From: Desulfobacterales bacterium
Lineage (GTDB): Bacteria; Desulfobacterota; Desulfobacteria; Desulfobacterales; JAHDSC01
DNA length: 64,000 bases
NCBI GenBank assembly: GCA_016931455.1
Contig: JAFGES010000071.1
Coordinates: forward strand, 1-64,000
Reading direction: 5' to 3'
Notes under the pieces: generated by a model
Seen by the model: the letters and a program-made list of their open reading frames with translations, nothing else
Told to the model about the DNA's origin: nothing
The model's database searches: none
Made by a program: the position numbers and the translations under genes
Shown: in pieces, positions 3,553 to 19,692 of the stretch
Position numbering within the stretch: position 1 is the first letter of the stretch
How the letters are laid out: every line of letters starts with the position of its first letter

Positions 3553-5325
3553 ATGAAAGTCTTGGTAATTGGCGCTGGTGGTAGGGAACATGCCTTAATC
3601 TGGAAAATCGCACAAAGCCCTAAAGTAAAAGAGATATATTCCGCACCAGGTAACGCCGGGATTTCTGAACTTGCGACCTGTGTTCCGATCGGTGCCGAGG
3701 ATATTGATGAGCTGCTTGAATTTGCCAAAAACAAGAAAATTAATCTCACTGTTGTGGGACCGGAAGGCCCTCTTTCTAAAGGCATTGTTGATATTTTTGA
3801 GCAGGCGGGTTTAAAAATATTCGGCGCAACTAAAAAGGCCGCCGAATTGGAATCCAGCAAATCTTTTGCTAAGACTTTAATGATGAAATACAATATTCCG
3901 ACTGCCGTCGGCCGGATATTTGATACTTATGAAAAGGCCGAGAATTACATTAGAAAAATGGGGGCACCCATTGTCGTGAAAGCCGATGGACTTGCCGCCG
4001 GTAAAGGGGTAATCGTTTGCAATAGTGAAAAAGAAGCCATCGAAGCACTTAGACAGATAATGATCGAACGTGTCTTCGGGGATGCAGGCAACCGAGTTGT
4101 GGTTGAGGAGTGCCTGACTGGTGAAGAAGCATCTTTTCTTGCCTTTACAGACGGGAAAACCGTTTTGCCACTGCCTTCGTCTCAGGACCATAAACCGATA
4201 TTCGACGATGACAAAGGCCCCAATACCGGTGGGATGGGGGCCTATTCACCCGCACCGGTAGTGGATCATTATATGCATCGGAAGATCATGGCTGAGGTAA
4301 TGATACCGACGGTTCGCGCAATGGAAGCTGAAGGGCGTCCATATAAAGGTGTTTTGTATGCCGGATTAATGATCAATAAAGATCAGCTCAAAGTTTTGGA
4401 ATTTAATGGACGTTTTGGCGATCCTGAAGCCCAGCCCCTCTTGATACGGATGAAAAATGATATCGTACCGGTACTTGAGGCTACGATTGAAGGTAATCTT
4501 CAGGAGTGCGAATTGGACATTGATACTCAGGCATCGGTATGTGTGGTTATGGCTTCGGGTGGATACCCGGGTTCGTATAATAAAGGTATGCCGATATCAG
4601 GGCTTGAAAAGGTTCGGCAAATGCAGGATGTCGTAGTTTTTCATGCAGGCACGGCGAAAAAGGATCTTAATATCGTTGCAAATGGTGGGCGTGTTTTAGG
4701 AGTGACAGCACTCGGAGATTCTATTAAAGAGGCAATTTCAAATGCTTATAAGGCTGTTTCTCAAATAACTTGGCAAGATGTTTATTATAGGAGTGATATC
4801 GGAAAAAAGGCTTTGAATCGACTTGAATTGCTGCCGGTAGTTGGAATTGTAATGGGCAGTGATTCCGACATTGAAGTTATGGAAGCTGCTGTGGAGGTTC
4901 TGAAAAAGTTTGACATACCATTTGAAATGACGGTTGCATCCGCCCATAGGAGTCCTCAAAAAGCGGTTGAATTCGCATCAAATGCTCTTAAGCGGGGAAT
5001 TAAGGTTATTATTGCCGGGGCGGGTCATGCAGCGCATCTTGCCGGGTTTATGGCTGCCCATACTTGTCTTCCGGTTATTGGTGTCCCCATAGATTCATCT
5101 TGTCTACAAGGTTTCGACGCCTTGCTTTCCACGGTTCAGATGCCGCCGGGCATTCCGGTAGCTACTCTTGCAATTGGAAAACCAGGGGCGAGAAATGCCG
5201 GTATACTCGCAGCCCAGATACTTGCATTGTCTAATCCGGAGCTCCTAAGCCAACTGGAGTTGTTTAAAAAGGAGATGGCAGCTGAAATTGATCAAAAATC
5301 CAAAAGACTCAAAGGCCCAAGATAA
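3553..5325 (+). CDS. purD: PurD-PurE fusion: phosphoribosylamine--glycine ligase / N5-CAIR mutase
   Basis: The first ~425 residues are a complete GAR synthetase (PurD): VLVIGAGGREHALIWKI at the N-terminus, VVGPEGPLSKGI, ATP-grasp VKADGLAAGKGVIV, NTGGMGAYSPAP and the signature FNGRFGDPEAQ. From about residue 435 a complete PurE follows: VGIVMGSDSDIEVM, SAHRSP, IAGAGHAAHLAGFMA and GIPVATLAIG. Both act in de novo purine synthesis (steps 2 and 6) and are usually separate genes. There is no stop or frameshift at the junction, so the fusion looks real. The start is ATG with GGGGAGGA just upstream. The tsaC-like gene overlaps its 3' end by 38 bases. Confidence 0.93.
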   Translation: MKVLVIGAGGREHALIWKIAQSPKVKEIYSAPGNAGISELATCVPIGAEDIDELLEFAKNKKINLTVVGPEGPLSKGIVDIFEQAGLKIFGATKKAAELESSKSFAKTLMMKYNIPTAVGRIFDTYEKAENYIRKMGAPIVVKADGLAAGKGVIVCNSEKEAIEALRQIMIERVFGDAGNRVVVEECLTGEEASFLAFTDGKTVLPLPSSQDHKPIFDDDKGPNTGGMGAYSPAPVVDHYMHRKIMAEVMIPTVRAMEAEGRPYKGVLYAGLMINKDQLKVLEFNGRFGDPEAQPLLIRMKNDIVPVLEATIEGNLQECELDIDTQASVCVVMASGGYPGSYNKGMPISGLEKVRQMQDVVVFHAGTAKKDLNIVANGGRVLGVTALGDSIKEAISNAYKAVSQITWQDVYYRSDIGKKALNRLELLPVVGIVMGSDSDIEVMEAAVEVLKKFDIPFEMTVASAHRSPQKAVEFASNALKRGIKVIIAGAGHAAHLAGFMAAHTCLPVIGVPIDSSCLQGFDALLSTVQMPPGIPVATLAIGKPGARNAGILAAQILALSNPELLSQLELFKKEMAAEIDQKSKRLKGPR

Positions 5326-6037: not shown

Positions 6038-6125
6038 GCCGGAGTGGTGAAACTGGTAGACGCAGAGGACTCAAAATCCTCCGGACCTTGCGTCCGTGCG
6101 AGTTCAATTCTCGCCTCCGGCACCA
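6038..6125 (+). tRNA. tRNA-Leu (CAA anticodon)
   Basis: Class II tRNA with acceptor stem GCCGGAG/CTCCGGC, anticodon stem-loop GAGGA-CTCAAAA-TCCTC, a long variable arm (CGGACCTTGCGTCCG), T-arm GCGAGTTCAATTCTCGC, and CCA encoded at 6123-6125. It reads TTG. An integrase fragment lies 124 bases downstream, so its 3' end is a likely old attachment site. Confidence 0.95.
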
Positions 6126-6133
6126 AAAAAATC

Positions 6134-6171
6134 AAGGGGTTACGGCAGATGCTGTGCCCCTTATTTTTTTT
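6134..6171 (+). terminator. terminator after tRNA-Leu
   Basis: The outer stem AAGGGG/CCCCTT, with an inner region that can partly pair, is followed by A and eight T. It ends the tRNA-Leu transcript and also marks the border of the island remnant. Confidence 0.75.
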
Positions 6172-6248
6172 GTCAATATCATGAATTGTGCTCGAAGTTG
6201 TGCCCGTCTGCGATTGCAAATAGGCCTCTTGCAATTTGGCTGCTTGCT

Positions 6249-7181
<933 letters not shown>

Positions 7182-7185
<4 letters not shown>

Positions 7186-7955
7186 TTAATACGTCTCCAA
7201 ATTGATTTCTGGATTTCTTCGCTTGTTATATCTGTAAATCCCTTAACGATCCATTCATGAGCAATTTCGAACCAGTCCCATACCGCATCCAAAGATTTAT
7301 CAACCCCAAGACCTCTTGCTGAAATTTCAAGGCGGAACATAGGCTGATTATCAATTTTTCGTGTTGCTTGATCTAGTTTAACAATGAATCGGCCTTTATC
7401 TTCCGGTAGTGCATACAGGGTCTTCCACCCTAAATTAAGGGGTTCGGGTAAAAATCTTTGATCATTCGATCTCCAGTTAAGTTCCGGAATTACTTTATGA
7501 ATATCAGCTATGGTTTCCCACCCTTCGCCTTTAACTATATCATTAATATAGGTAAGTTCGCAATCAACCGGTTCTAAAATACCCAGTTTCTCGTCTTCAA
7601 TGAATTCGGTAAACATTTTTAAATTGAGCGTAAATGTCTTTATAACTGTATTATATCTAGGATAAGACTCTTCCGGCTGTATTTTTCGCCAATTATAAAA
7701 GAACATATTTTCCTGCAATTGTATAAGCCCGTTTTTTTCTTCGTTAATAAACCATAGCCTTGGAAGCGGTAATTTGAACATAGGCTCTGTTTCAGAAGGA
7801 TCTGGAAAACCTAATGTTGGGGCGTGCTGACATGCAGGAAAATTATTGCGTAGTTTATCCCAAAATAAACCAAAGTGGGGAACTTTGAATTCTTTAATTT
7901 TTTTAAATTTAAGCCCACAAGCAACCTCAATAACTGGATTATCTCTTTGGAAGAT
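7182..7955 (-). CDS. TIGR04255-family protein, 5' end broken or with hidden start
   Basis: The C-terminal half fits the sporadically distributed TIGR04255 family: LPRLWFINEE, LIQLQENMFFYNWRK, CELTYINDI, and the ending DAVWDWFEIAHEWIVKGF, DIT, W. An ATG at 7781 would give 199 residues. However, the conserved family N-terminus (RDNPVIEVACGLKF, then HFGLFWDKLRNNFP) reads on in frame upstream to 7955. No ATG, GTG or TTG exists there before a TAA at 7956-7958. The gene therefore seems to have lost its start, or uses a non-standard one. It is coupled to the next gene by ATGA. The function of the family is unknown. Confidence 0.6.
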
Positions 7956-8260: not shown

Positions 8261-8920
8261 TTACTGCAATGCCTTAATCTTTCGAATATCACCGGATTTG
8301 CCAAGCATAATTAAAATATCATTGGCTCTAATAACATATTCGGCAGCTGGTACGAGAATAAAGTTATCCGGTTCCTGCTCCTTCTTTATTGCGATGATAT
8401 GAACATTGTATCGCGCTCGCAGATTCAACTCTTTCAAACTCTTTTCTATAAAACTCTGAGGAGCAGCCGCCTGCAAGATCTCAAACTCTTTAGTCAGAGG
8501 AACGAAGTCAAGAATGTTGGACTGAGATAATCCCCGAGCCACCCTTACCGCCATGGCTCTTTCCGGATGAATAATTTCAGTTGCTCCAACTCGGACCAGA
8601 ATTTTTTCGTGATCTTCATCCAAGGCCTTGACAAGGATTTTTTGGACCCCTATTTCCTGAAGATACAAACAAATCAAAATGCTGGAACTGATCTGGGTGC
8701 CGGTGGAAACGATAACTGCGTCCATTCTTTCAAGCCCCAAGCTTTTTAGGGTTTCTTTGTTGGTTGCATCAAAAACGATGGACTCCGTCGCATGATGCTT
8801 AATTGCCTGCACCCTCGTCTTGTCCTTATCGATAACAATCACTTCGTGTCCATCCTCATATAAGGCCATAGCCGTATATGTTCCGAATTTCCCAAGTCCT
8901 ATTACCGCAAATCTCTTCAT
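8261..8920 (-). CDS. ktrA: KtrA-type regulatory subunit of a K+ uptake system
   Basis: 219 residues, the normal KtrA length. An N-terminal Rossmann RCK_N domain has VIGLGKFGTYTAMAL (GxGxxG) and an acidic VIVIDKD at strand 2; a C-terminal RCK_C domain covers about residues 140-219. The family forms a cytoplasmic octameric ring that gates KtrB in response to ATP/ADP. The start is ATG with AAGGGAA upstream. It is the last gene of the ion operon, 15 bases after ktrB, an order that supports a KtrB-KtrA pair distinct from the TrkH/TrkA pair upstream. Confidence 0.9.
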   Translation of the reverse strand: MKRFAVIGLGKFGTYTAMALYEDGHEVIVIDKDKTRVQAIKHHATESIVFDATNKETLKSLGLERMDAVIVSTGTQISSSILICLYLQEIGVQKILVKALDEDHEKILVRVGATEIIHPERAMAVRVARGLSQSNILDFVPLTKEFEILQAAAPQSFIEKSLKELNLRARYNVHIIAIKKEQEPDNFILVPAAEYVIRANDILIMLGKSGDIRKIKALQ

Positions 8921-8935
8921 GAAATTTCCCTTATA

Positions 8936-10312
8936 TTATCCAATCATGATATTTTCTTCGGCATGCTCAATGCCTTCAGTCATGGTACCAACACCAATGA
9001 CAATATATGAAAAGGCTAAAACGCCGATTCGCCCGATCAGCATGGTTAAAATTATCCACCCCTTACCCCATATTGACAGTTCCGGGGTTATCCCCATAGA
9101 CAGTCCAACAGTGCCAAACGCCGAGACGGTTTCAAAAAAGTATCCAAGAAAGAAATTGTTACCTCCATCGATATCTTGATTACCAGGTGCTCTGATCAAC
9201 AGCATGAACAAAACAATACTGACGATGCCGATAGAAACAAGGATAAGAGAGAGGCTTCTGTTTACAGTTTCGATCGGCACACTTTTTTTAAACATATTGA
9301 CACGCCGTTTTCTCTTGATTCTAGCCAAAGTAAACATTACGACCAAAGCCAGAGTCGTTGTTTTAACACCACCTCCGCAAGAACCGGGAGAGGCTCCGAA
9401 AAACATGAGAAAAATCATCAACGCAAGGGTTGCTTCTCTTAACGAGGCGATATCAACCGTGTTAAATCCGGCAGTACGACAGGTAATTGATTGAAATAAC
9501 GGAATCAGAAGGCGATTAGATAAGGTTTGTGTTTCACCAAATGATTGCCTTTCCAAGAACGCGAACAGCAGCGCTCCTGCTATTATCAGGCTCACGGTTG
9601 TCAGCAAAACAGTTTTAGTCTGTACTGCCAAACTGACCCTTTTCTTTCTTCTGTTCATCAACCAAGCTTGAAGATCGTAAATCACAGGAAACCCAATACC
9701 CCCTATTACAATTAAGCAACATATAATTACATTGAACAATAAGTCGTTACTATAGCGCATCATGCTGTCAGGAAATAGTGCGAAACCGGCGTTACAAAAT
9801 GCCGAAATTGAATGAAACATCCCCATATAAACGGCATCCAAAATCGGGAGTTCACGAGCCCAATGAATGGTCAATAAAATACCCCCAAAAAACTCGACCC
9901 CCAGCGTAAAAAAAATAATATTTTTAATCAGGTTGAAAATATCTTCTCTGGGACTATGGGCGAACATTTCCTGCATAATCATTCGATGACGAAAAGAGAT
10001 GATTCGGCCTATCCAGCGAAAAAGGGCTACGGAAATGGTCATCACACCGAGGCCTCCTATCTGGATAAGTATGAGGATGACACTTTGACCGAAGGACGTA
10101 AAATAGCTCCCGGTATCAACCACGACAAGGCCGGTTACACAGACAGCGGACGTAGCGGTGAATAGTGCATCCACCCAAGTAATTGCGCCGCTTTTTGTGG
10201 AAAATGGCAGTTTGAGAGCGATCACTCCCACAATAATGACCAAAAGAAAACTGGTCAATACGACTATCGCTGGATGTGCCTTATATCTTCTCCCGCGGAA
10301 GGTCATAGTCAA
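8936..10312 (-). CDS. ktrB: KtrB-type K+ (Na+-dependent) translocating subunit
   Basis: 458 residues, SKT superfamily. Four repeated M-P-M units each bring a selectivity-filter loop with its glycine: TSAVCVTGLVVVD, SISAFCNAGFALF, SITCRTAGFNTVD and VSAFGTVGLSMGI. The length and direct adjacency to KtrA support KtrB over TrkH. It moves K+ inward, in known systems together with Na+. The start is TTG 10312, overlapping the stop of the previous gene (TTGA); ATG 10306 is an equally good choice. The protein should sit in the inner membrane. Confidence 0.9.
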   Translation of the reverse strand: MTMTFRGRRYKAHPAIVVLTSFLLVIIVGVIALKLPFSTKSGAITWVDALFTATSAVCVTGLVVVDTGSYFTSFGQSVILILIQIGGLGVMTISVALFRWIGRIISFRHRMIMQEMFAHSPREDIFNLIKNIIFFTLGVEFFGGILLTIHWARELPILDAVYMGMFHSISAFCNAGFALFPDSMMRYSNDLLFNVIICCLIVIGGIGFPVIYDLQAWLMNRRKKRVSLAVQTKTVLLTTVSLIIAGALLFAFLERQSFGETQTLSNRLLIPLFQSITCRTAGFNTVDIASLREATLALMIFLMFFGASPGSCGGGVKTTTLALVVMFTLARIKRKRRVNMFKKSVPIETVNRSLSLILVSIGIVSIVLFMLLIRAPGNQDIDGGNNFFLGYFFETVSAFGTVGLSMGITPELSIWGKGWIILTMLIGRIGVLAFSYIVIGVGTMTEGIEHAEENIMIG

Positions 10313-10902
10313 GGCCTCGGCTTCAGATAATATTCACAGTGAAGATGGTTATCTGTCTCGCAAATTTCATTCAGTCTACAGCCACCAAGCACCATCCGGT
10401 CGAGATATGCTCCGCACACTTTCATTTCATGTTGCGAATCAACTTTGCTGTAATGCAGGAAGGGGCATAGCATAGCCAACTGTCGTTCCACTCGATCATC
10501 CTGTCCCATTCGATGGATGCAGAATTGAATTTGACGAAAATCCAATAAACTTTCACTTGCAAATTTAACGAAATCCACACCAGCCTCCCGAAGCCGCTCC
10601 AGAATCGTCCGATGCTTTGAATTGAGCAGCGCTAATACGGTACAGCTGCTGGTGTAACGGTTTTGTTTCAGCACAGCACAAAGCTCCAAGAGAGGTTCGC
10701 GCTCCCTTAACGGCATCTTCCCAAAACGGATCACGATGATTTTTGGAGTATCGGTAACAGCCTTATCCAAGCATCTGACAGGACTATTGACGCATGTCAC
10801 ATCGGATGGCGATAATCCGCAGAACTCACCGGTAGGGTCACACAACAAAAAAAGTGATTTTTGCGTCTGATCTTCATTAGGGTTTGCATTTTTTTCCAGC
10901 AG
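10309..10902 (-). CDS. unknown Cys-rich protein between TrkH and KtrB, probable CTG start
   Basis: Not recognised. A TTG start at 10848 gives 179 residues, but no ribosome-binding site precedes it. The frame is open up to two CTG codons at 10897-10902, directly after AAGGAGGTGATTA, a near-perfect ribosome-binding site with ideal spacing, so CTG 10902 (197 residues) is preferred. The middle (PKIIVIRFGKMPLREREPLL, LLNSKH, LREAGVDFVKF) resembles a small alpha/beta receiver- or rhodanese-like fold. The C-terminus has five cysteines (128, 145, 157, 163, 171 counting from the TTG), which could bind Zn or Fe-S. It overlaps ktrB by four bases, so it is co-translated with K+ transport genes. Confidence 0.7.
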   Translation of the reverse strand: MLEKNANPNEDQTQKSLFLLCDPTGEFCGLSPSDVTCVNSPVRCLDKAVTDTPKIIVIRFGKMPLREREPLLELCAVLKQNRYTSSCTVLALLNSKHRTILERLREAGVDFVKFASESLLDFRQIQFCIHRMGQDDRVERQLAMLCPFLHYSKVDSQHEMKVCGAYLDRMVLGGCRLNEICETDNHLHCEYYLKPRP

Positions 10903-10905
10903 TAA

Positions 10906-12393
10906 TCACCTCCTTGTCGACCGCGACATTATAAGACGAACATCTTTCCCAAGCTTTAACAAGCTGACTAAAATGACGATAAACTCTAGCCGGCCGAGAA
11001 ACATTGCGAAAATTTCGAGCCAAAGAACCACATCCGGCATATCGGGTGAAGTCAACCCTACAGAAAGACCTACGGTTCCGAGCGCAGAGGCAAACTCAAA
11101 CAGAGAATCGCTAAGGCTGTAACTGTTGGCACATAGGAACATGACCCCAAATATATAGATTACAAGGTATAAAAAGACAAAAACCGCTATCTGACGGACT
11201 CTGGTGCCATCAACGAAGACTCGCCTGTTGCCGTTCCATACGGGGAATTCTAAAATCGCTGTCCTTGGCATGAGACGGCGTTTGATGTCCCAAAAAATCA
11301 ATCTATATAAAAAATAGATACGAAATTGCTTAATACCGCCGGCCGTGGAACAGGTACCACCTCCAATGAGCATCAGGACGACCATGAGAATCATACCAAA
11401 TACATTCCAGCTTGCATAACTGGTTGTGGAAAAACCTGTGGTTGTGAGTGCCGACACCGTCTCAAACACCGCGACCCGTATTGATTTACCAAGCTGCGGA
11501 TAGATAGTTTGACAGGTGAATATAAATGCGGCAACGGCCGACAACGGAATTAAAACGGCCTGCAAACGAACTTCACCATTTTTTACAATAAAGCGAAGCT
11601 TTCCGCGCCAAAGGAACCAGGCGGTGACAAAACTCAAGTTTCCAAGCATCATGAGCGGAAGCGTCACCGCCTCGATTGCGGTTGAGTCCCAATATCCGAT
11701 GCTCTCTACTCTTGTTGAAAAACCACCTGTAGATACAGCGGCAAAAGCATGGTTAAACGCATCAAAAAAGGGCATTCCCGCCATACGATAGGCTAACGTC
11801 CCGACGACGGCATAGCACATGTAAATAACTAGGACCAGACGCGCCGACTGTCGAATATGCGGGACAAGCTGTTCGCTACGTCCCTCGGCACTCGAAATAC
11901 CGACCCCAGTCGGGCCTACGATGGCGGACATCATGATAATGGCCAAGCCGGCCCCTCCGGCAAACTGGATGATGCTACGCCAAAACAGAATCATTGGACC
12001 AGCGACGGTCACATCTACGACAGAAAGCCCCGTAGTGGTCCATCCACTTACCGACTCGAACACGGCCCTGGAATAAGGAAGTCCCAAAAGAGGAACAAAT
12101 GGCCATGCGGAAAACAGAATGACCACGATCCAGCTTATTAGAACGATAATACCGCCTTCTTGGATTGATAGAGAAACATTGGAGCTGGACCGAAATCGCC
12201 GCCACAAGAAAAACCCCACCAGAGCGAGGCATCCTGCGGGAAGACAGAACGAGAAGGCATTTGTAGCTTCCTCTGGGTTTGATATCAAAACAAAAAGCGG
12301 AGTCACCATCACTGCACTGGAAAGGATAAGGATCACGCCAATGGATGAGAGGATTGCTGTATAGCGCCTTTTAAGATACTCTTTTTCCCTCAA
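10906..12393 (-). CDS. trkH: TrkH-family K+ uptake channel subunit
   Basis: 495 residues with ten or more hydrophobic segments. Four filter loops are visible: SVSGWTTTGLSVVD, FAAVSTGGFSTRV, TVSALTTTGFSTTSY and ASALGTVGLSVGL. It brings K+ across the inner membrane under control of TrkA. The start is TTG 12393, with GAGGGG upstream inside the preceding trkA gene (23-base overlap). It is the first of two SKT-type channels in the same operon. The N-terminal two-helix extension is typical of TrkH and absent from KtrB. Confidence 0.9.
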   Translation of the reverse strand: MREKEYLKRRYTAILSSIGVILILSSAVMVTPLFVLISNPEEATNAFSFCLPAGCLALVGFFLWRRFRSSSNVSLSIQEGGIIVLISWIVVILFSAWPFVPLLGLPYSRAVFESVSGWTTTGLSVVDVTVAGPMILFWRSIIQFAGGAGLAIIMMSAIVGPTGVGISSAEGRSEQLVPHIRQSARLVLVIYMCYAVVGTLAYRMAGMPFFDAFNHAFAAVSTGGFSTRVESIGYWDSTAIEAVTLPLMMLGNLSFVTAWFLWRGKLRFIVKNGEVRLQAVLIPLSAVAAFIFTCQTIYPQLGKSIRVAVFETVSALTTTGFSTTSYASWNVFGMILMVVLMLIGGGTCSTAGGIKQFRIYFLYRLIFWDIKRRLMPRTAILEFPVWNGNRRVFVDGTRVRQIAVFVFLYLVIYIFGVMFLCANSYSLSDSLFEFASALGTVGLSVGLTSPDMPDVVLWLEIFAMFLGRLEFIVILVSLLKLGKDVRLIMSRSTRR

Positions 12394-13069
12394 AGCCGTT
12401 GCCCCTCTGCTGACTCTCGCCGGTAAACACTTTCAGTGCTGAACCATGATTTTCCGGGAGGGTGATCAACACCAGCCGGTCGCCTGCCAGCAAATTATTT
12501 GCACCCCGCGGAACGATTGGTTGGTTGTCACGAATCAATACCGCAATCAAAGCGTTTTCAGGAAGATCGATATCCTTTAACACCTTGCCTGCAACGGGCG
12601 AATCGACGTCAAGTATGATCTCAGTCACATTCACCCGTCCTTCTCCGACAGACATCAGATTAAGAACTTGTTCCAACGAAGCGCGTTGTTCAATCAAGCT
12701 GCCGACAATTTGCGTAGTCGAAAATGCGGAAACTCCCAATTTTTCAAATATTTCTGTGTTGTCAGGGTCATTTGCCATGGCTAAGACTTTTGTTACTCCA
12801 AACTTGAGTGAGGCCAGTTGGCAAATAACCAGATTGTCCTGGTCATTCGGGGTAATGGCAAGAACCGCGTCGGCCCCTATGATCCCGGCGTCCTTAAGAA
12901 TCGCGGCATCACTGCCGTCTCCGCAGATCACCATAGCGGAAAGTTGACGGGCCAGTTGAATGCATTCATCTTTCTTGCGGTTGATAATAACCACTTCATA
13001 TCCCTTGGCAATGAAATTACGGCAAATGAAATAAAGAGTCTTACCCCCTCCTACAATAAGTACCTTCAT
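12371..13069 (-). CDS. trkA: TrkA-type RCK protein (RCK_N + RCK_C)
   Basis: 232 residues: one Rossmann domain (MKVLIVGGGKTLYFICRNF, VVIINRKKDE) and one C-terminal RCK_C domain (residues ~145-225). Classical TrkA has two such units in about 450 residues, so this is a half-size form. The P-loop GGGKTLYF departs from GxGxxG at its last glycine. It overlaps the upstream TrkA-N gene by four bases (ATGA). Likely cytoplasmic gating partner of TrkH, together with the shorter protein upstream. Confidence 0.85.
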   Translation of the reverse strand: MKVLIVGGGKTLYFICRNFIAKGYEVVIINRKKDECIQLARQLSAMVICGDGSDAAILKDAGIIGADAVLAITPNDQDNLVICQLASLKFGVTKVLAMANDPDNTEIFEKLGVSAFSTTQIVGSLIEQRASLEQVLNLMSVGEGRVNVTEIILDVDSPVAGKVLKDIDLPENALIAVLIRDNQPIVPRGANNLLAGDRLVLITLPENHGSALKVFTGESQQRGNGFEGKRVS

Positions 13070-13575
13070 AACCGTGCACCTTTCGGATTCATACTCCCAT
13101 TGAAGACGACACGTAAAAACATGTCTACAGCGACAGTCGTGGGACAGATAGTTTCGATGCCAAGTTGTGCGTAGACCTCCTCTCTTTTGGGGTCGAAAAC
13201 TCTAGCTATCACCAGGCGGACATTGAAAATCTTTTGGGCGATCTGAGCTACCATCAGGTTTACATTATCCTCGTGTGTTGTCGCGATCAGGACATCTGCG
13301 TTTTTAAGCTTGGCCTCATTTAATATCGCCATATGGGTGGCGTCACCATCAATTCGAAAGCCACTGAAATCGGGTGAAAGATCATTGAATGCGGTCTCAT
13401 TCATATCAATCATCACGACTAAATTTCCGCTATGACTGAGCTGGTTGGCTAAATGTGAACCTAAACGTCCACATCCAACAACAACTATATATCGGTTATT
13501 TTTTATTGCTTTTCTCATCGCTGACATTGTCCTTTCGGTCAGCATTCTTGCTGCCCGATCCGAGATTGATTCCAC
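13066..13575 (-). CDS. short TrkA-N (RCK_N only) protein
   Basis: A single Rossmann domain (YIVVVGCGRLGSHLANQL, GxGxxG intact; VVMIDMNE) without the RCK_C half. The full frame begins with GTG 13575, directly after the ATPase stop and with no ribosome-binding site. ATG 13527, preceded by AAAGGA, is a more convincing start (153 residues). With the following gene it may form a split or hetero-oligomeric TrkA. The missing RCK_C domain suggests it cannot sense a ligand through that half. Confidence 0.85.
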   Translation of the reverse strand: MESISDRAARMLTERTMSAMRKAIKNNRYIVVVGCGRLGSHLANQLSHSGNLVVMIDMNETAFNDLSPDFSGFRIDGDATHMAILNEAKLKNADVLIATTHEDNVNLMVAQIAQKIFNVRLVIARVFDPKREEVYAQLGIETICPTTVAVDMFLRVVFNGSMNPKGARL

Positions 13576-16326
13576 TTATGATGTTTGCCGCATGCGCCTG
13601 ATTAATTTTAATATTTCCCAGATGCCGAGAAAAATTATTGAAGCAACACACACCAATACCCAGTCCAAAGAAAGCAGATCGCTGAATCGAAGGAAATCAC
13701 TGATCAATGGGGAATAGATAGCTATCAACACAAGCCCGATGGAGGCGATGATTGAGACTAACAAAATTATGTTCGTCAAAATGTTGCGGTTGAAAAGCGA
13801 AATACTGTCGTACCGGCGTTCAAGTGTGTTGATGTACTGGCAAAATACTATTGTGGCGTAGGAAAGAGAAGTGACCCTCATATAGGTCATCTCAGAACTT
13901 TCCATTGTAAACATGATTCCCTCACGGTATATATAAAACAGAAAGTTCAGGAAGGACAATCCACCTATCAGGGCACCAAGAGAAACGACTTCAATACTAG
14001 ATTTAAAATCAAGCATACGTTTTTTCGGATCACGGGGAGGTCTGGACATCAGGCCCTTCCTCGGGGGATCAAAGGTAAGGAAGGTAAGAGGCATGATTTG
14101 CCCCAGCAAATCAATGGCCAGGATCTGAACTGCCAAAATCGGCAGTGGAAGATGCCATATTGCAATTCCCAATAACCCGAAGAGCACCAAGGTCAGTTCA
14201 CCACTGTTGGTGGTTAGAGTTGAGAAAACTGTTTTTTTCAAATTGTCGTATATGGTTCTGCCTTCCCTGATTGCATAGACGAGCGTGGCGAAACTGTCAT
14301 CAATCAGAACAAGCTTTGCTGCTTCCTTCGCCACATCTGTGCCCCTTCTACCCATGGCTACTCCGATATGAGCCTTTCGTAAGGCTGGTGCATCATTGAC
14401 ACCATCTCCGGTGACGGCGACAACCTCCCCCAGCTCTACCAGCAAAGTAACAATTTTTAATTTATCTTCCGGGGCCACACGTGAAAAAATGATGGATTCT
14501 TTTCCGGCAAGTATTTCCCTCAATGCTTCGTTATTCATTTCATTCAGTTCTATGCCGGTTATAGTCAATATTTCACCACCTTCGGCAAGTCCGATCTCCC
14601 TTGCAATTGCCTTGGCGGTTATTTCGTAATCGCCCGTAAGGATAAATATGCGAATTCCCGCATTTCTTGCTTCGGCGACAGCCTCCCGGACACCATCCTT
14701 GGGCGGATCGATCATGGCCACAAGGCCTAGAAAAGTAACATCACACTCCACTTCATCCTTCTCGTACTCACCCTCGCGGGGGACTAAAGACTTGTTGGCG
14801 ATAGCTAAAACACGCATGCCGTTCTCGGAATATCGTTCGTTCTCTTTACAAATTTGTTGCTTATCCTCCTCGGTGATCGGTATAGCTTCGCCTTCCTTAT
14901 GAATATATCCACTGATGGCAAGAATACTTTCCGTGGAGCCTTTCATCGCAAGGAAAATTTCATCTCCGAAGCGGTGAACGGAACTCATTCGTTTTCGATC
15001 CGCATCAAAAGAAAACTCTTGCAGTTTGTGTTTTTCCTTCTCTTCCAAATCCGGATGGATGCCAAATTTGGCAGACATAGCCACTATCGCAGCTTCTGTC
15101 GGATCTCCTACCGAATACCAGTCGAAGTGACCTTTGTCCGGTTGATGGATCTCCGCCGTGGAAGCCAAGGTTGCAGCAGTCAGCAAAACCTCCATTTCTT
15201 TGATGTCTTCCCGGCGCAATGGTTCTTTTTGTTTGTTTAATATGTCGCCCTTCGGCTTATAGCCTGTCCCGGTAATCCAATAGTCGGCACCATTGAACCA
15301 GACGGAACGGACCGTCATCTCACTCATAGTCAATGTGCCCGTCTTATCTGTACAGATCACCGTGGTCGAACCCAGGGTTTCAACAGAGGGTAGGTTTTTA
15401 ACAACAGCGTTTCGTGCTGCTAGTCTACTACTGCCGGATGTCAACGCGACTGTCACCTGCGCCGGGAGTGCCTGCGGCACCACCGCCATGGCGACCCCCA
15501 GTGCATAGGTAAGACTCAGGAAAAAACTAAATTTCTGCAGCACTCCGACAACGAAAAGTGCTGCGCCAATGATGACAACCATAACTGTAAGCTTTCGTGC
15601 CAGATCACGCATCTCTTCCTGAAGTGGAGTGACTGTTACACCTGTTTTACCGGTCATACCGGCAATTTTGCCGGTCGTGCTGTCCATGCCGGTCGCGACT
15701 ACAACACCGGTTGCGTGACCTGAGACAATTATAGTTCCGGCATATCCCATGTTTGTTCTATCAGCCAGGCCGACATCTGCCTCGAGAGGTTCGGTTGTTT
15801 TTTCTCGCGGCACCGATTCCCCGGTAAGTGCAAACTCATTGGTCTTGAAATCCGTAGTCGCGATGAAGCGAACATCGGCGGGTAGATTATCGCCGGTTTC
15901 CACGACAATAATATCGCCAGGGACCAGGTTGCTCGCATCTGTCTCCACGAGTTCCCCATCTCGGCGGACCTTTGCCGGAGAGCGCAGCATCTCCTTCAAG
16001 GAATCAACGATTTTTCCCGCCCGGTATTCCTGAATGAAGCCAATGATCGCATTAACCAAAACAATAATGAAAATAATGGCGGTGCCTCGATAGTCACCGA
16101 TAAAAAGGGAAATTAGGCCTCCAATGATAAGGATAATGATCAGAAGTTCCCGGAATTGTGCCAGAAATAACAGCCACAACGGCATCTGTATCTGAGTTTG
16201 CAATTCGTTTTTGCCGTATTTGCGCAGAAGACGCTCCGCCTTCCGTCTGGACAGCCCCTCCCGGGAGGTACGGAGTGCTTTGATCACATCATCTTCCGCC
16301 ATTCGGTAATAACTGTCCACTTTCAT
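13576..16326 (-). CDS. P2-type cation-transporting ATPase with altered ion-site residues
   Basis: 916 residues: cation-ATPase N domain (1-70), actuator domain with LTGESVP, phosphorylation motif CTDKTGTLT (Asp327), KGSTE and GDPTEAA in the N-domain, and TGDGVNDAPAL in the P-domain. The length and layout match Ca2+/Na+ P2 ATPases. The helix-4 motif, normally PEGLP, is PQALP: Gln285 stands 42 residues before Asp327, exactly where SERCA has Glu309. In helix 6, VQILAIDLLGQ replaces the usual VQILWINLVTD. Helix 5 keeps its Glu (NSGEL). The transported ion is therefore uncertain; Na+, K+ or H+ are possible. It sits 10 bases after the kinase gene and directly before the trkA genes. Confidence 0.9.
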   Translation of the reverse strand: MKVDSYYRMAEDDVIKALRTSREGLSRRKAERLLRKYGKNELQTQIQMPLWLLFLAQFRELLIIILIIGGLISLFIGDYRGTAIIFIIVLVNAIIGFIQEYRAGKIVDSLKEMLRSPAKVRRDGELVETDASNLVPGDIIVVETGDNLPADVRFIATTDFKTNEFALTGESVPREKTTEPLEADVGLADRTNMGYAGTIIVSGHATGVVVATGMDSTTGKIAGMTGKTGVTVTPLQEEMRDLARKLTVMVVIIGAALFVVGVLQKFSFFLSLTYALGVAMAVVPQALPAQVTVALTSGSSRLAARNAVVKNLPSVETLGSTTVICTDKTGTLTMSEMTVRSVWFNGADYWITGTGYKPKGDILNKQKEPLRREDIKEMEVLLTAATLASTAEIHQPDKGHFDWYSVGDPTEAAIVAMSAKFGIHPDLEEKEKHKLQEFSFDADRKRMSSVHRFGDEIFLAMKGSTESILAISGYIHKEGEAIPITEEDKQQICKENERYSENGMRVLAIANKSLVPREGEYEKDEVECDVTFLGLVAMIDPPKDGVREAVAEARNAGIRIFILTGDYEITAKAIAREIGLAEGGEILTITGIELNEMNNEALREILAGKESIIFSRVAPEDKLKIVTLLVELGEVVAVTGDGVNDAPALRKAHIGVAMGRRGTDVAKEAAKLVLIDDSFATLVYAIREGRTIYDNLKKTVFSTLTTNSGELTLVLFGLLGIAIWHLPLPILAVQILAIDLLGQIMPLTFLTFDPPRKGLMSRPPRDPKKRMLDFKSSIEVVSLGALIGGLSFLNFLFYIYREGIMFTMESSEMTYMRVTSLSYATIVFCQYINTLERRYDSISLFNRNILTNIILLVSIIASIGLVLIAIYSPLISDFLRFSDLLSLDWVLVCVASIIFLGIWEILKLIRRMRQTS

Positions 16327-16335
16327 AGTTTTATC

Positions 16336-18168
16336 CTATTGACCGATCGGCAAAGTGAAGATGAAGGTGCTGCCCTTACCGGGGGAGGATTCCACCCAGA
16401 TCGTGCCTCCATGGGCTCGCACTATTTCTTTACAGATGGCAAGTCCCAGCCCCGTACCACCGGCCTCTTGACCTTTTACTTGCACAAATTTATGAAAAAT
16501 CCTGGTTTGATATTCTTGGGGAATCCCCAGTCCATCGTCATGAACGGAAAGATGGATATGCGGACCAATTCTTTCAGCGGCAAGTATAATATGTCCACCC
16601 TTCTGTACGTACCTGAGAGCATTGGAAATAAGGTTGGTCAAAACCCATGTTATTTTGTTTGCATCCGCACGGACTTTTGGCAAGTTATCGTCCACTTTAT
16701 AGGTGAGCGTTGTCTCCTTCATATCAAGCTGACTTTTGAAAATGATCCGCACATGGTCGAAAAGATTTGAAACTTCAACTTTCTCAAATTCCATTTCGAT
16801 CCGGCCAGCCTCTATTTTCGATAAATCCAACAAATCATTAACCAGAGCGTTTATTCGGTGGACACCCTCATGAGCAGCCTGGAGAAGGCCTCTATCTTTT
16901 TCGGGAAGTGCCTGGGCGGCATGCTCCAGAAGGAGATCAACACTCATGCCCAGACTGGTCAGGGGTGTTCGCAACTCATGAGAAGCTGCCATAACGAACT
17001 CGCTTTTGAGTTTCTCCACTTCCTTTAACCGGGTGATGTCTCTGAGTAAAAGCACAATGCCCGACAGGTTGTGATCTCTGCCCCGAATAGCGGTAACGGA
17101 AAACAGGTAGTGTCGTTGCCGTTCGTCCTCTGATAGGACGATGATCCGCTGTTCTTCGGGTAATTTGGGAGAGGCTCCGGTTTCAATGGTGTTTTTGATC
17201 AAATCACAAACAGCGGGGTCTGGAATTATCTCGGTGCAAAGCAAAGAAGATGTCTCGGCAGATGCTAATCCCAGCATTTGGCGTGCAGCCGGATTGATGC
17301 CGGTTATCTTGAGCTGGGTATCAAAAACCACCAATCCATCCTCGATGCTGGAAAGAATCGCCTCCCCCTTATTCTTCTCTGAAATGATCTGTTCGATGTT
17401 CATCTCGTGATATCGAAGGAGCTGTGTGGCCATTTGGTTAAACTCGCTGGCCAAGCAGCCCAGTTCGTCTTCGGTTTCCACCGGTACCTGTACGGCATAG
17501 TCCCCTGACGAGATCTTTCGTGACGCCTCCATGAAACGTCGAATCGGCCCTACAATCCTCTCGGCGAGAAACAGGCTGAAAATCAAAGCTACAATCAATG
17601 CCGCCGCGGCTACAAGCGATGTGGACCAGATGGCGTGTTTTGCCACATTCGCAGCTTTCACACTGGCGGTGTACATGGTTTCCTCATTCAGGCAACGTAA
17701 GCCGATGCATACATCACGGACCTTTGCGAAAAGAGGGTAGATCGATTCCTGATATGACGAGTATGGTGATGGTCTCCGAGCAATGTCATGAAAATCGATC
17801 CATGTGAAAAATTGACGTCGATAGGCAGCATAATCAGACTCGATGGCTTGAACCAATTTCGCCTCACCTTGTATTGTAATATTGTCCTTGGCACGAGCCA
17901 ACCACTCTAAAAACACAGCTTCGTTTTCCCGGAATTGATCAGTTCCTTTGTTAACATCCCCCAAATAGATGAGCAGGATTGCGCTGTCCTGACGTTCCAA
18001 CGCGTCCACCATGTTCTCGGCGGCAAGAATACTTCTGTAGTTTTCGCTGAGGATTGCCTCAGACGCCTTACCCAGAGCAATGAGATTTGTGACCGCCCAT
18101 GCAACCACCAGTCCCATGAGAATAAAGGCAACGCCATAGCCGATGAAAATCTTTTTTTTTAGTGTCAT
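16336..18168 (-). CDS. KinB-like sensor histidine kinase
   Basis: 610 residues from ATG 18168, preferred because the protein then begins with a membrane anchor (MTLKKKIFIGYG) and AAAGGA lies upstream; an in-frame TTG-type extension to 18237 would run into the sigma-54 promoter. Order: helix 1 (~8-30), periplasmic four-helix domain (NYRSILAAENMVDALERQDS recalls KinB), helix 2 (~175-200), HAMP, PAS (~275-375), HisKA with SHELRTPLTS, HATPase with NLISNALRY, DDGLGIP and GGTGLGLAI. It phosphorylates the NtrC-type regulator encoded upstream. First gene of the ion-transport operon. Confidence 0.9.
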   Translation of the reverse strand: MTLKKKIFIGYGVAFILMGLVVAWAVTNLIALGKASEAILSENYRSILAAENMVDALERQDSAILLIYLGDVNKGTDQFRENEAVFLEWLARAKDNITIQGEAKLVQAIESDYAAYRRQFFTWIDFHDIARRPSPYSSYQESIYPLFAKVRDVCIGLRCLNEETMYTASVKAANVAKHAIWSTSLVAAAALIVALIFSLFLAERIVGPIRRFMEASRKISSGDYAVQVPVETEDELGCLASEFNQMATQLLRYHEMNIEQIISEKNKGEAILSSIEDGLVVFDTQLKITGINPAARQMLGLASAETSSLLCTEIIPDPAVCDLIKNTIETGASPKLPEEQRIIVLSEDERQRHYLFSVTAIRGRDHNLSGIVLLLRDITRLKEVEKLKSEFVMAASHELRTPLTSLGMSVDLLLEHAAQALPEKDRGLLQAAHEGVHRINALVNDLLDLSKIEAGRIEMEFEKVEVSNLFDHVRIIFKSQLDMKETTLTYKVDDNLPKVRADANKITWVLTNLISNALRYVQKGGHIILAAERIGPHIHLSVHDDGLGIPQEYQTRIFHKFVQVKGQEAGGTGLGLAICKEIVRAHGGTIWVESSPGKGSTFIFTLPIGQ

Positions 18169-18220
18169 AGGAAACAGTCCTTTGTTAGTCCTATAATGGC
18201 AAAGATATATAAGGTTACAT

Positions 18221-18236
18221 AGCAACGAATGTACCA
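18221..18236 (-). promoter_or_regulatory. sigma-54 promoter of the kinase-ATPase-Trk/Ktr operon
   Basis: On the - strand TGGTACATTCGTTGCT matches the sigma-54 consensus TGGCACRNNNNTTGCW at all but one defined position (C to T). The GG-GC spacing is exactly 10 bases. Transcription would start near 18211, giving a leader of about 43 bases to the kinase ATG. An NtrC-type activator gene ends 125 bases upstream. Confidence 0.8.
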
Positions 18237-18318
18237 AATATAATATATTTAAAATTCAATATCTTATGGATATAAAAGAAAAAAGGAACTTTGAAAACTG
18301 AAAGGAGAGAATGATTGT

Positions 18319-18346: not shown

Positions 18347-18370
18347 AAAAAAACCCGGAATCAAATTCCG
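18347..18370 (-). terminator. terminator of the response-regulator gene
   Basis: The stem CGGAAT/ATTCCG with loop TTG, then GG and seven T on the - strand. The regulator's stop codon lies inside the hairpin. It separates the regulator gene from the sigma-54-driven operon. Confidence 0.72.
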
Positions 18371-19692
18371 TAGGTTTTTCTCCTCCGCCAAAGTGTTGCC
18401 TGGTCGATACCCAGAACGTCCGCCGCTTCCTGAAGCGAGGAGGTGGATGCTATGACTCTTCTGATATGCAGTTCTTCGATGGTGGACAAAGGTACTTTGT
18501 CGCCAATTGCGGGAGTGGGAACGGTTGGAATTATATTACCGGGCAGATCGTTGGCACCAATCCTCTCCCCGCTTCCCAGAATCACAGCACGTTCTATTGT
18601 ATTACGCAATTCCCGGATATTACCGGGCCACACATGCTTTGTTAGTAAATTTTCAGCTTCCTCGGTAAAGCCTAGCAATGTCTTGTGATTGGCTTTACAG
18701 AAATAGGCAAGAAAATCAGCCGCCATCGGCATAATGTCCTCCCTCCGCTGACGAAGAGGAGGAATTGTCACACTGATCACATTGAGCCGATAAAACAGGT
18801 CTTCCCTGAAGCATCGCTCCACAACCCGTCTTTCAAGATCAGCGTTAGTGGCGGCGATAATACGTACATCGGCCTTGCGTAACGTTGAATTTCCGAGACG
18901 CTCGTACTCCTTGTCCTGGATGAAGCGAAGTAGTTTCGCTTGAACTGAAAAGGCCATATCTCCGATTTCGTCCAGAAAAAGAGTGCCCCCCTCACAGGCC
19001 GCGATTCGACCGGGATTATCTAGTACAGCTCCCGTAAAGGCCCCTTTGACATATCCAAACAACTCGCTTTCGAGGAGTTCGGATGGAACCGCCGGACAGG
19101 CGACAATCGCCATAGGTTTTCCCGACCTAGAACTCCACTGATGAATGGCCCGGGCAAAGACCGATTTTCCCGTTCCACTTTCTCCCTGCAACAAAACAAT
19201 GGCCTCTGACGCAGCAGCTTTTCTCAATGTTTCAATCACACGCTGCATGCCGGGGTTTTTGCTGAGAAGCCGATCTTCCGGGCCAAGCTGATGCATATCC
19301 TCTCTAAGGACAGCAATTTCATTCTCCAATTCACGAATTTTGCCGATCCTGCGGGTAATAAGTTTGACTTGATCCGGAGTGAAGGGTTTTGCGATGTAAT
19401 CCGTAGCACCTCGCCTAATGGCTTCCACAGCGGTTTCGATGGATGCATGAGCCGTGATAACAACGATTTTGATCCAAGGTGAGTCCGACAGTAAAACCGG
19501 AATCAAATCCATGCCGTCTTCTTCTCCAAGTTTAAGGTCCACGAAGGCCATATCAAATGACCGTCTTTCGGCCTCTTCGACAGCGTCGGCGGGATTGCTC
19601 ACTGCAATTACCGTATGTCCTTCCGTTGCCAAACAGTACGAGAGAGTCTTACGGATATTGGCTTCATCATCAATGACTAATATTTGCAACAT
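18361..19692 (-). CDS. AlgB-like NtrC-family sigma-54 response regulator
   Basis: 443 residues: receiver (1-120) with DD at 8-9 and phospho-acceptor Asp52 (AFVDLKLGE); AAA+ domain (~135-360) with Walker [15 protein letters not shown], the sigma-54 contact loop GAFTGA and FLDEIGDM; C-terminal Fis-type HTH ([20 protein letters not shown]). The receiver text ([29 protein letters not shown]) closely recalls AlgB, partner of KinB. The start is ATG with AGAGGA upstream. It ends in its own terminator and is followed by a probable binding site and sigma-54 promoter, so its direct target is most likely the downstream ion-transport operon. Confidence 0.93.

Follow-up and report, generated by a model that had tools for sequence, protein, structure and literature searches.

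On sequence comparison, protein X is a new family: a 197-aa protein encoded on the minus strand at positions 10309–10902 of the window (the whole 64,000-nucleotide stretch of Desulfobacterales DNA that was analyzed) and apparently composed of a degenerate receiver domain and a C-terminal four-Cys module. We take X to be a metal-bearing cytoplasmic regulatory subunit of the KtrB-like channel subunit TrkH2 that would gate the TrkH2-TrkA3 complex by the state of its metal site, and we give this reading a probability of roughly 45%. What is new is that a Trk/Ktr operon encodes an additional, probably regulatory, subunit that combines a degenerate receiver with a four-Cys module.

The operon lies on the minus strand, and its genes follow each other in the order regulator, kinase, ATPase, TrkA1, TrkA2, TrkH1, X, TrkH2, and TrkA3. 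The regulator (18361–19692) is a sigma-54-dependent response regulator with receiver, AAA, and Fis HTH domains; the kinase (16336–18237, with a start probably nearer 18168) is a HAMP-PAS histidine kinase; and these are followed by a P-type cation ATPase (13576–16326), TrkA1 (13066–13575), which has only the TrkA_N domain in Pfam, and TrkA2 (12371–13069), which has both TrkA_N and TrkA_C. The second SKT channel subunit, TrkH1 (10906–12393), was identified with Pfam and NCBIfam models, and the KtrB-like SKT channel subunit TrkH2 (8936–10312) with Pfam and with TIGR00933 above its cut-off; both match the Pfam model TrkH (PF02386), with E values of 7.6e-59 and 3.8e-53, respectively. The last gene, TrkA3 (8261–8920), encodes a KtrA-like RCK subunit with TrkA_N and TrkA_C domains in Pfam. 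In most relatives that have the long operon, a receiver-TPR gene stands between the kinase and TrkA1, in the slot that the P-type cation ATPase occupies in the window. Elsewhere in the window, we observed a plus-strand PurD-PurE fusion of 590 aa (3553–5325), in which GARS domains precede AIR carboxylase, and a tRNA-Leu (6038–6125) followed by an 84-aa minus-strand frame and two unknown genes. The 84-aa frame has no match in Pfam and carries a motif that we take to resemble the end of a tyrosine recombinase; the region 6038–7781 is perhaps the remnant of an integrated element.

The open frame of X comprises 197 residues after the TGA stop codon of TrkH1 (10906–10908), which is in frame with X. 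This stop codon is overlapped by a ribosome-binding site read directly from the minus strand, AAGGAGGTGA (10906–10915), which is followed by TTA and then by CTG CTG GAA, and the GGAGG of which lies six bases upstream of the CTG at 10902. The first in-frame ATG, GTG, or TTG is the TTG at 10848, and a start there would truncate the first predicted strand; the N-termini of X relatives, which mostly start with ATG, align from the CTG region. Given the spacing of the ribosome-binding site, the alignment of the relatives, and the absence of ATG, GTG, and TTG before the first predicted strand, the likeliest start is the CTG at 10902 (or that at 10899), with a strong ribosome-binding site ahead of it. 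At the other end of the gene, the stop codon (10309–10311) overlaps a TTG start of TrkH2, the first ATG of which is two bases past the stop.

The original prediction recognized no family for X, and this assessment was borne out: X has no match in Pfam, NCBIfam, or PHROG at E ≤ 1, and family look-ups with its relatives gave only scattered matches of one member each. A PDB profile search with X gave nothing below E 0.3; among the eight matches listed at E ≤ 10, six are response-regulator, PleD, or CheY chains. Titles and abstract openings in the literature yielded no description of an X-like protein, which is not proof of absence.

A single-sequence search found X matches in 7 of 58 relatives and in 10 of 297 genomes of the phylum, three of which (G248, G278, and G292) were later dropped as carriers because the short matches lie inside other proteins. 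A profile search with X gave matches in 42 of 395 genomes at E ≤ 0.01, ten of them at an E value of 5.4e-23 or better. A match in one stretch from the scan of genome contigs (L002), where no X-like open reading frame was called, was treated as chance. Beyond the window, 14 copies of X were found in other genomes within this phylum, resulting in a set of 15 X loci; searches of viral contigs, plasmids, and phages found no relatives. The carriers are scattered, and 51 of the 58 relatives had no match, including the sole other genome of the same family. A relative from a genome of another family is 57% identical to X over 195 residues, and this identity across families, together with the same gene position in all 15 loci, argues for conservation beyond chance. 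A dsrA search of 16 genomes (the 15 X carriers and G001) gave a match above the cut-off in 12 of the 15 carriers compared with 142 of 297 phylum genomes, a share that suggests a group rich in sulfate reducers such as Desulfobacterota; the window's own genome lacks dsrA, sampling is uneven, and the carriers are related, and we therefore do not draw a link between X and dsrA.

The most constant feature of the neighborhood is TrkH2, the gene for which is immediately downstream of X in 15/15 loci, across one order and further families of the phylum and at identities as low as approximately 31%. The original prediction had X translationally coupled to ktrB, and this coupling is conserved: the X stop and the TrkH2 start overlap or abut in 13 of the 15 loci, by an ATGA overlap in ten and by an overlap or abutment in the window, L019, and L025 as well, and they neither overlap nor abut in L027 and L063. 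The prediction further asked whether homologs always sit beside trkH/ktrB; they do so for TrkH2 but only in part for TrkH1, found directly upstream of X in 10 of 15 loci. The upstream neighbor is instead the kinase in L061 and the sigma-54 regulator in L019, L020, L027, and L063; TrkH1 was not seen within the stretches fetched for L019, L020, L027, and L061, and in L063 the X-TrkH2-TrkA3 block is separate from a TrkA1-TrkA2-TrkH1 block. Because TrkH1 is directly upstream in only these ten loci, coupling two channels is not what the loci share, and the proposal that X couples two SKT channels is not supported. TrkA3 follows TrkH2 in 12 of the 14 loci whose contig extends that far and is absent behind TrkH2 in L020 and L062; judged from these two, it is not obligatory.

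TrkH2-like genes also occur without X. When the X profile was run on TrkH2-like loci outside the X set, nothing X-like was detected in 8/8 stretches (in one of which, L126, the gene is cut off by the end of the contig), and the genes upstream are PolX, TatD, a hydroxyacid dehydrogenase, a hybrid kinase, or unassigned genes. The genome of the window itself carries a second TrkH2-like copy without X (C127) at 56% identity. In the TrkH2 tree, the X carriers do not form one clean clade; L119, which lacks X, groups with L019, whereas L027 lies outside. The adjacency in 15/15 loci, the coupling in 13/15, and the eight X-less stretches elsewhere favor a partnership between X and TrkH2, and on these sequence comparisons X is a good candidate regulatory partner of TrkH2.

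The alpha/beta core that had been predicted for X is, by distant homology, receiver-like (CheY-like) and covers residues ~17–135 (10498–10854, minus strand). Beyond the ten genomes with true members, weak matches to the X profile (E ≤ 0.01) were obtained in 32 of 385 genomes, compared with 2 of 228 for the reversed profile. In 16 of 20 such loci, an independent model detects a receiver domain, and 15 of these 16 align in one register. When the X family alignment is read with the register of these weak receiver matches, the phospho-acceptor column in 14 sequences contains R, R, R, L, R, S, S, F, Y, S, I, R, R, and F, and Asp in none (Arg59 in the window). Direct comparisons were negative: neither X nor 11 members matched PF00072 at E ≤ 1, and a profile comparison by hhalign with six receivers chosen independently of X gave a nonsignificant score of 12.9 (shuffles reached up to 15.5). 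An hhalign receiver score of 35.6 vanished once L030, itself an X-profile match, was left out, and a rank test for receiver likeness was confounded, the reversed profile scoring better. A structure model from the single sequence shows alternating strands and helices at a pLDDT of 36.9 and is useless as a fold. Compared with the CheY-like receiver of PF00072, the X core is weakly but consistently similar from beta2 to alpha4, in a single register, and has a plausible order of strands and helices, whereas it has a shorter beta1-beta2 stretch, a four-Cys tail, and no output domain. X thus apparently contains, by distant homology, a degenerate receiver without the phospho-acceptor Asp.

The four-Cys module comprises residues 143–196 (10315–10476, minus strand), with the pattern C146-x16-C163-x17-C181-x7-C189. 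All five C-terminal cysteines originally noted are present, but only these four are invariant among the 14 aligned full-length members (14/14), and conservation does not extend to the fifth, Cys174; Pro147, Ala165, Arg169, Leu172, Gly173, and Leu177 are likewise invariant in 14/14. In the single-contig genome G011 (L022, 7796–8038, minus strand), an internal deletion has removed the core of X, leaving ~77 residues that keep the N-terminal LVCD and all four cysteines, are 68% identical to the tail in the window, and retain the ATGA overlap with TrkH2; the regulator and kinase are also kept. This single genome suggests, without proving it, that the tail is the selected part of X. A PDB search with the tail alone gave no convincing match, and a search with the tail turned up GcvH-like proteins as well as small stand-alone proteins that share its four-Cys pattern. 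The profile score between the X module and the GcvH-like module is 32.7, whereas 100 shuffles with the Cys columns kept fixed reached at most 19.5, with some selection bias since the GcvH-like module was found by searching with the tail of X itself. A mixed four-Cys profile matches in 26 of 247 genomes, a count that includes the X carriers. The loci L076, L084, L137–L149, and others encode proteins with the module, either GcvH-like with one or two N-terminal copies or, in L149 and L150, stand-alone with 77–82 aa; where tested, the Cys part of these proteins has no Pfam model. The module of the GcvH-like (GCV_H, PF01597) and stand-alone proteins shares CP-[FY]-[LM] ... C ... C-x7-C with the X tail. 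In the GcvH-like proteins it precedes a lipoyl-type domain, whereas in X the module follows the receiver-like core, and the spacings of the middle cysteines differ between the X tail and the GcvH-like and stand-alone modules.

The chief rival to a channel subunit is that X acts on the two-component system of the operon, as a nonphosphorylatable receiver. It would compete for the kinase or attach to the sigma-54 regulator, its Cys site would supply a second input, and the outcome would be transcriptional feedback on the K+ uptake operon. The receiver-like core fits such a role. The sigma-54 regulator and the histidine kinase are as constant as the channel, being present in 12/12 loci whose contig reaches them (the contigs of L024, L025, and L062 end before this region and are outside the count), and in L019, L020, L027, and L063 X directly follows the regulator. 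The gap behind the regulator also contains sigma-54-type sites. Among 12 main regions scanned, a TGGCAC-N5-TTGC-like site occurs in this gap with no mismatch in L026, one in the window, L022, L061, and L027, two in six regions, and three in L019, and in nine of these 12 regions it lies ~25–53 nt upstream of the gene that follows; in two further regions, in L017 and L063, the site is absent or poor. The site in the window, TGGTACATTCGTTGC (18222–18236, minus strand), is ~50 nt ahead of the likely ATG of the kinase and was equalled in 1 of 500 base shuffles, compared with 33 of 500 for L018, 35 for L019, 19 for L023, and 17 for L063. Because shuffles often equal them, single sites are weak, and their recurring position is the main argument; likewise, the whole window contains four sites with at most one mismatch against 3.5 expected, so that position rather than number counts. 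The sites make it likely that the regulator of the adjacent two-component system controls the operon, X included, and shared operon control of this kind could by itself account for the clustering of X with the regulator. Moreover, the tight coupling of X is with TrkH2 and not with the regulator, and G011, in which regulator, kinase, and Cys tail are all retained, has lost the receiver-like core. We consider an action on the two-component system somewhat unlikely.

Alternatively, X could help TrkH2 to fold or assemble, or the four cysteines of X could form a structural zinc site, with no sensing in either case. The position of X directly before TrkH2 with coupled translation is compatible with the former, and four invariant cysteines with the latter. 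However, the X-less TrkH2-like channels, including the copy in the same genome, argue that folding does not generally need X, and the CxxC knuckles of a zinc ribbon are absent; we regard this explanation as unlikely. That X has an unrelated role and belongs to the operon by inheritance only would suit a family with no known function, but it is very improbable given that the X-TrkH2 adjacency is kept over 15 genomes down to ~31% identity while the upstream genes vary.

As a regulatory subunit of TrkH2, X would be made in step with the KtrB-like channel and would dock on the TrkH2-TrkA3 complex, the receiver-like core, having lost phosphorylation, serving as the docking surface. The four-Cys tail would be the working part: its cysteines may bind a metal, in which case an Fe-S cluster is likelier than a zinc ribbon since there is no CxxC pair and about half of the phylum carries dissimilatory sulfite reductase, and X would alter channel opening according to the state of this site. 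The more far-reaching version, in which redox or iron state controls the gating of a KtrB-type K+ channel through an Fe-S or metal pseudo-receiver within a sigma-54-switched operon and K+ entry in anaerobes is thereby tied to redox state at the protein level, seems doubtful to us. If X with its metal-type Cys site does regulate one channel clade, this would be an additional layer of control on K+ entry, and X is a defined, small, soluble protein on which to test it; the module shared with GcvH-like proteins is an uncharacterized building block whose metal could be assigned alongside that of X.

The operon resembles the KtrAB and TrkAH systems of the SKT superfamily in that it likewise encodes SKT subunits, here two, and RCK proteins, here three. 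KtrA and TrkA, the regulators of those systems, belong to the Rossmann-type RCK proteins, and known regulators of Trk/Ktr channels bind nucleotides via these RCK subunits. X has no TrkA_N match, and hhalign comparisons with the TrkA1 and TrkA3 sets remained at background. DVU3334 of Desulfovibrio vulgaris regulates its own kdp operon (PMC3333781). There the transporter is Kdp and not Trk/Ktr, and the relevant passages of the article do not mention an X-like protein; in both cases, a response regulator is encoded with a K+ uptake operon, which in this sulfate reducer it controls (PMC3333781).
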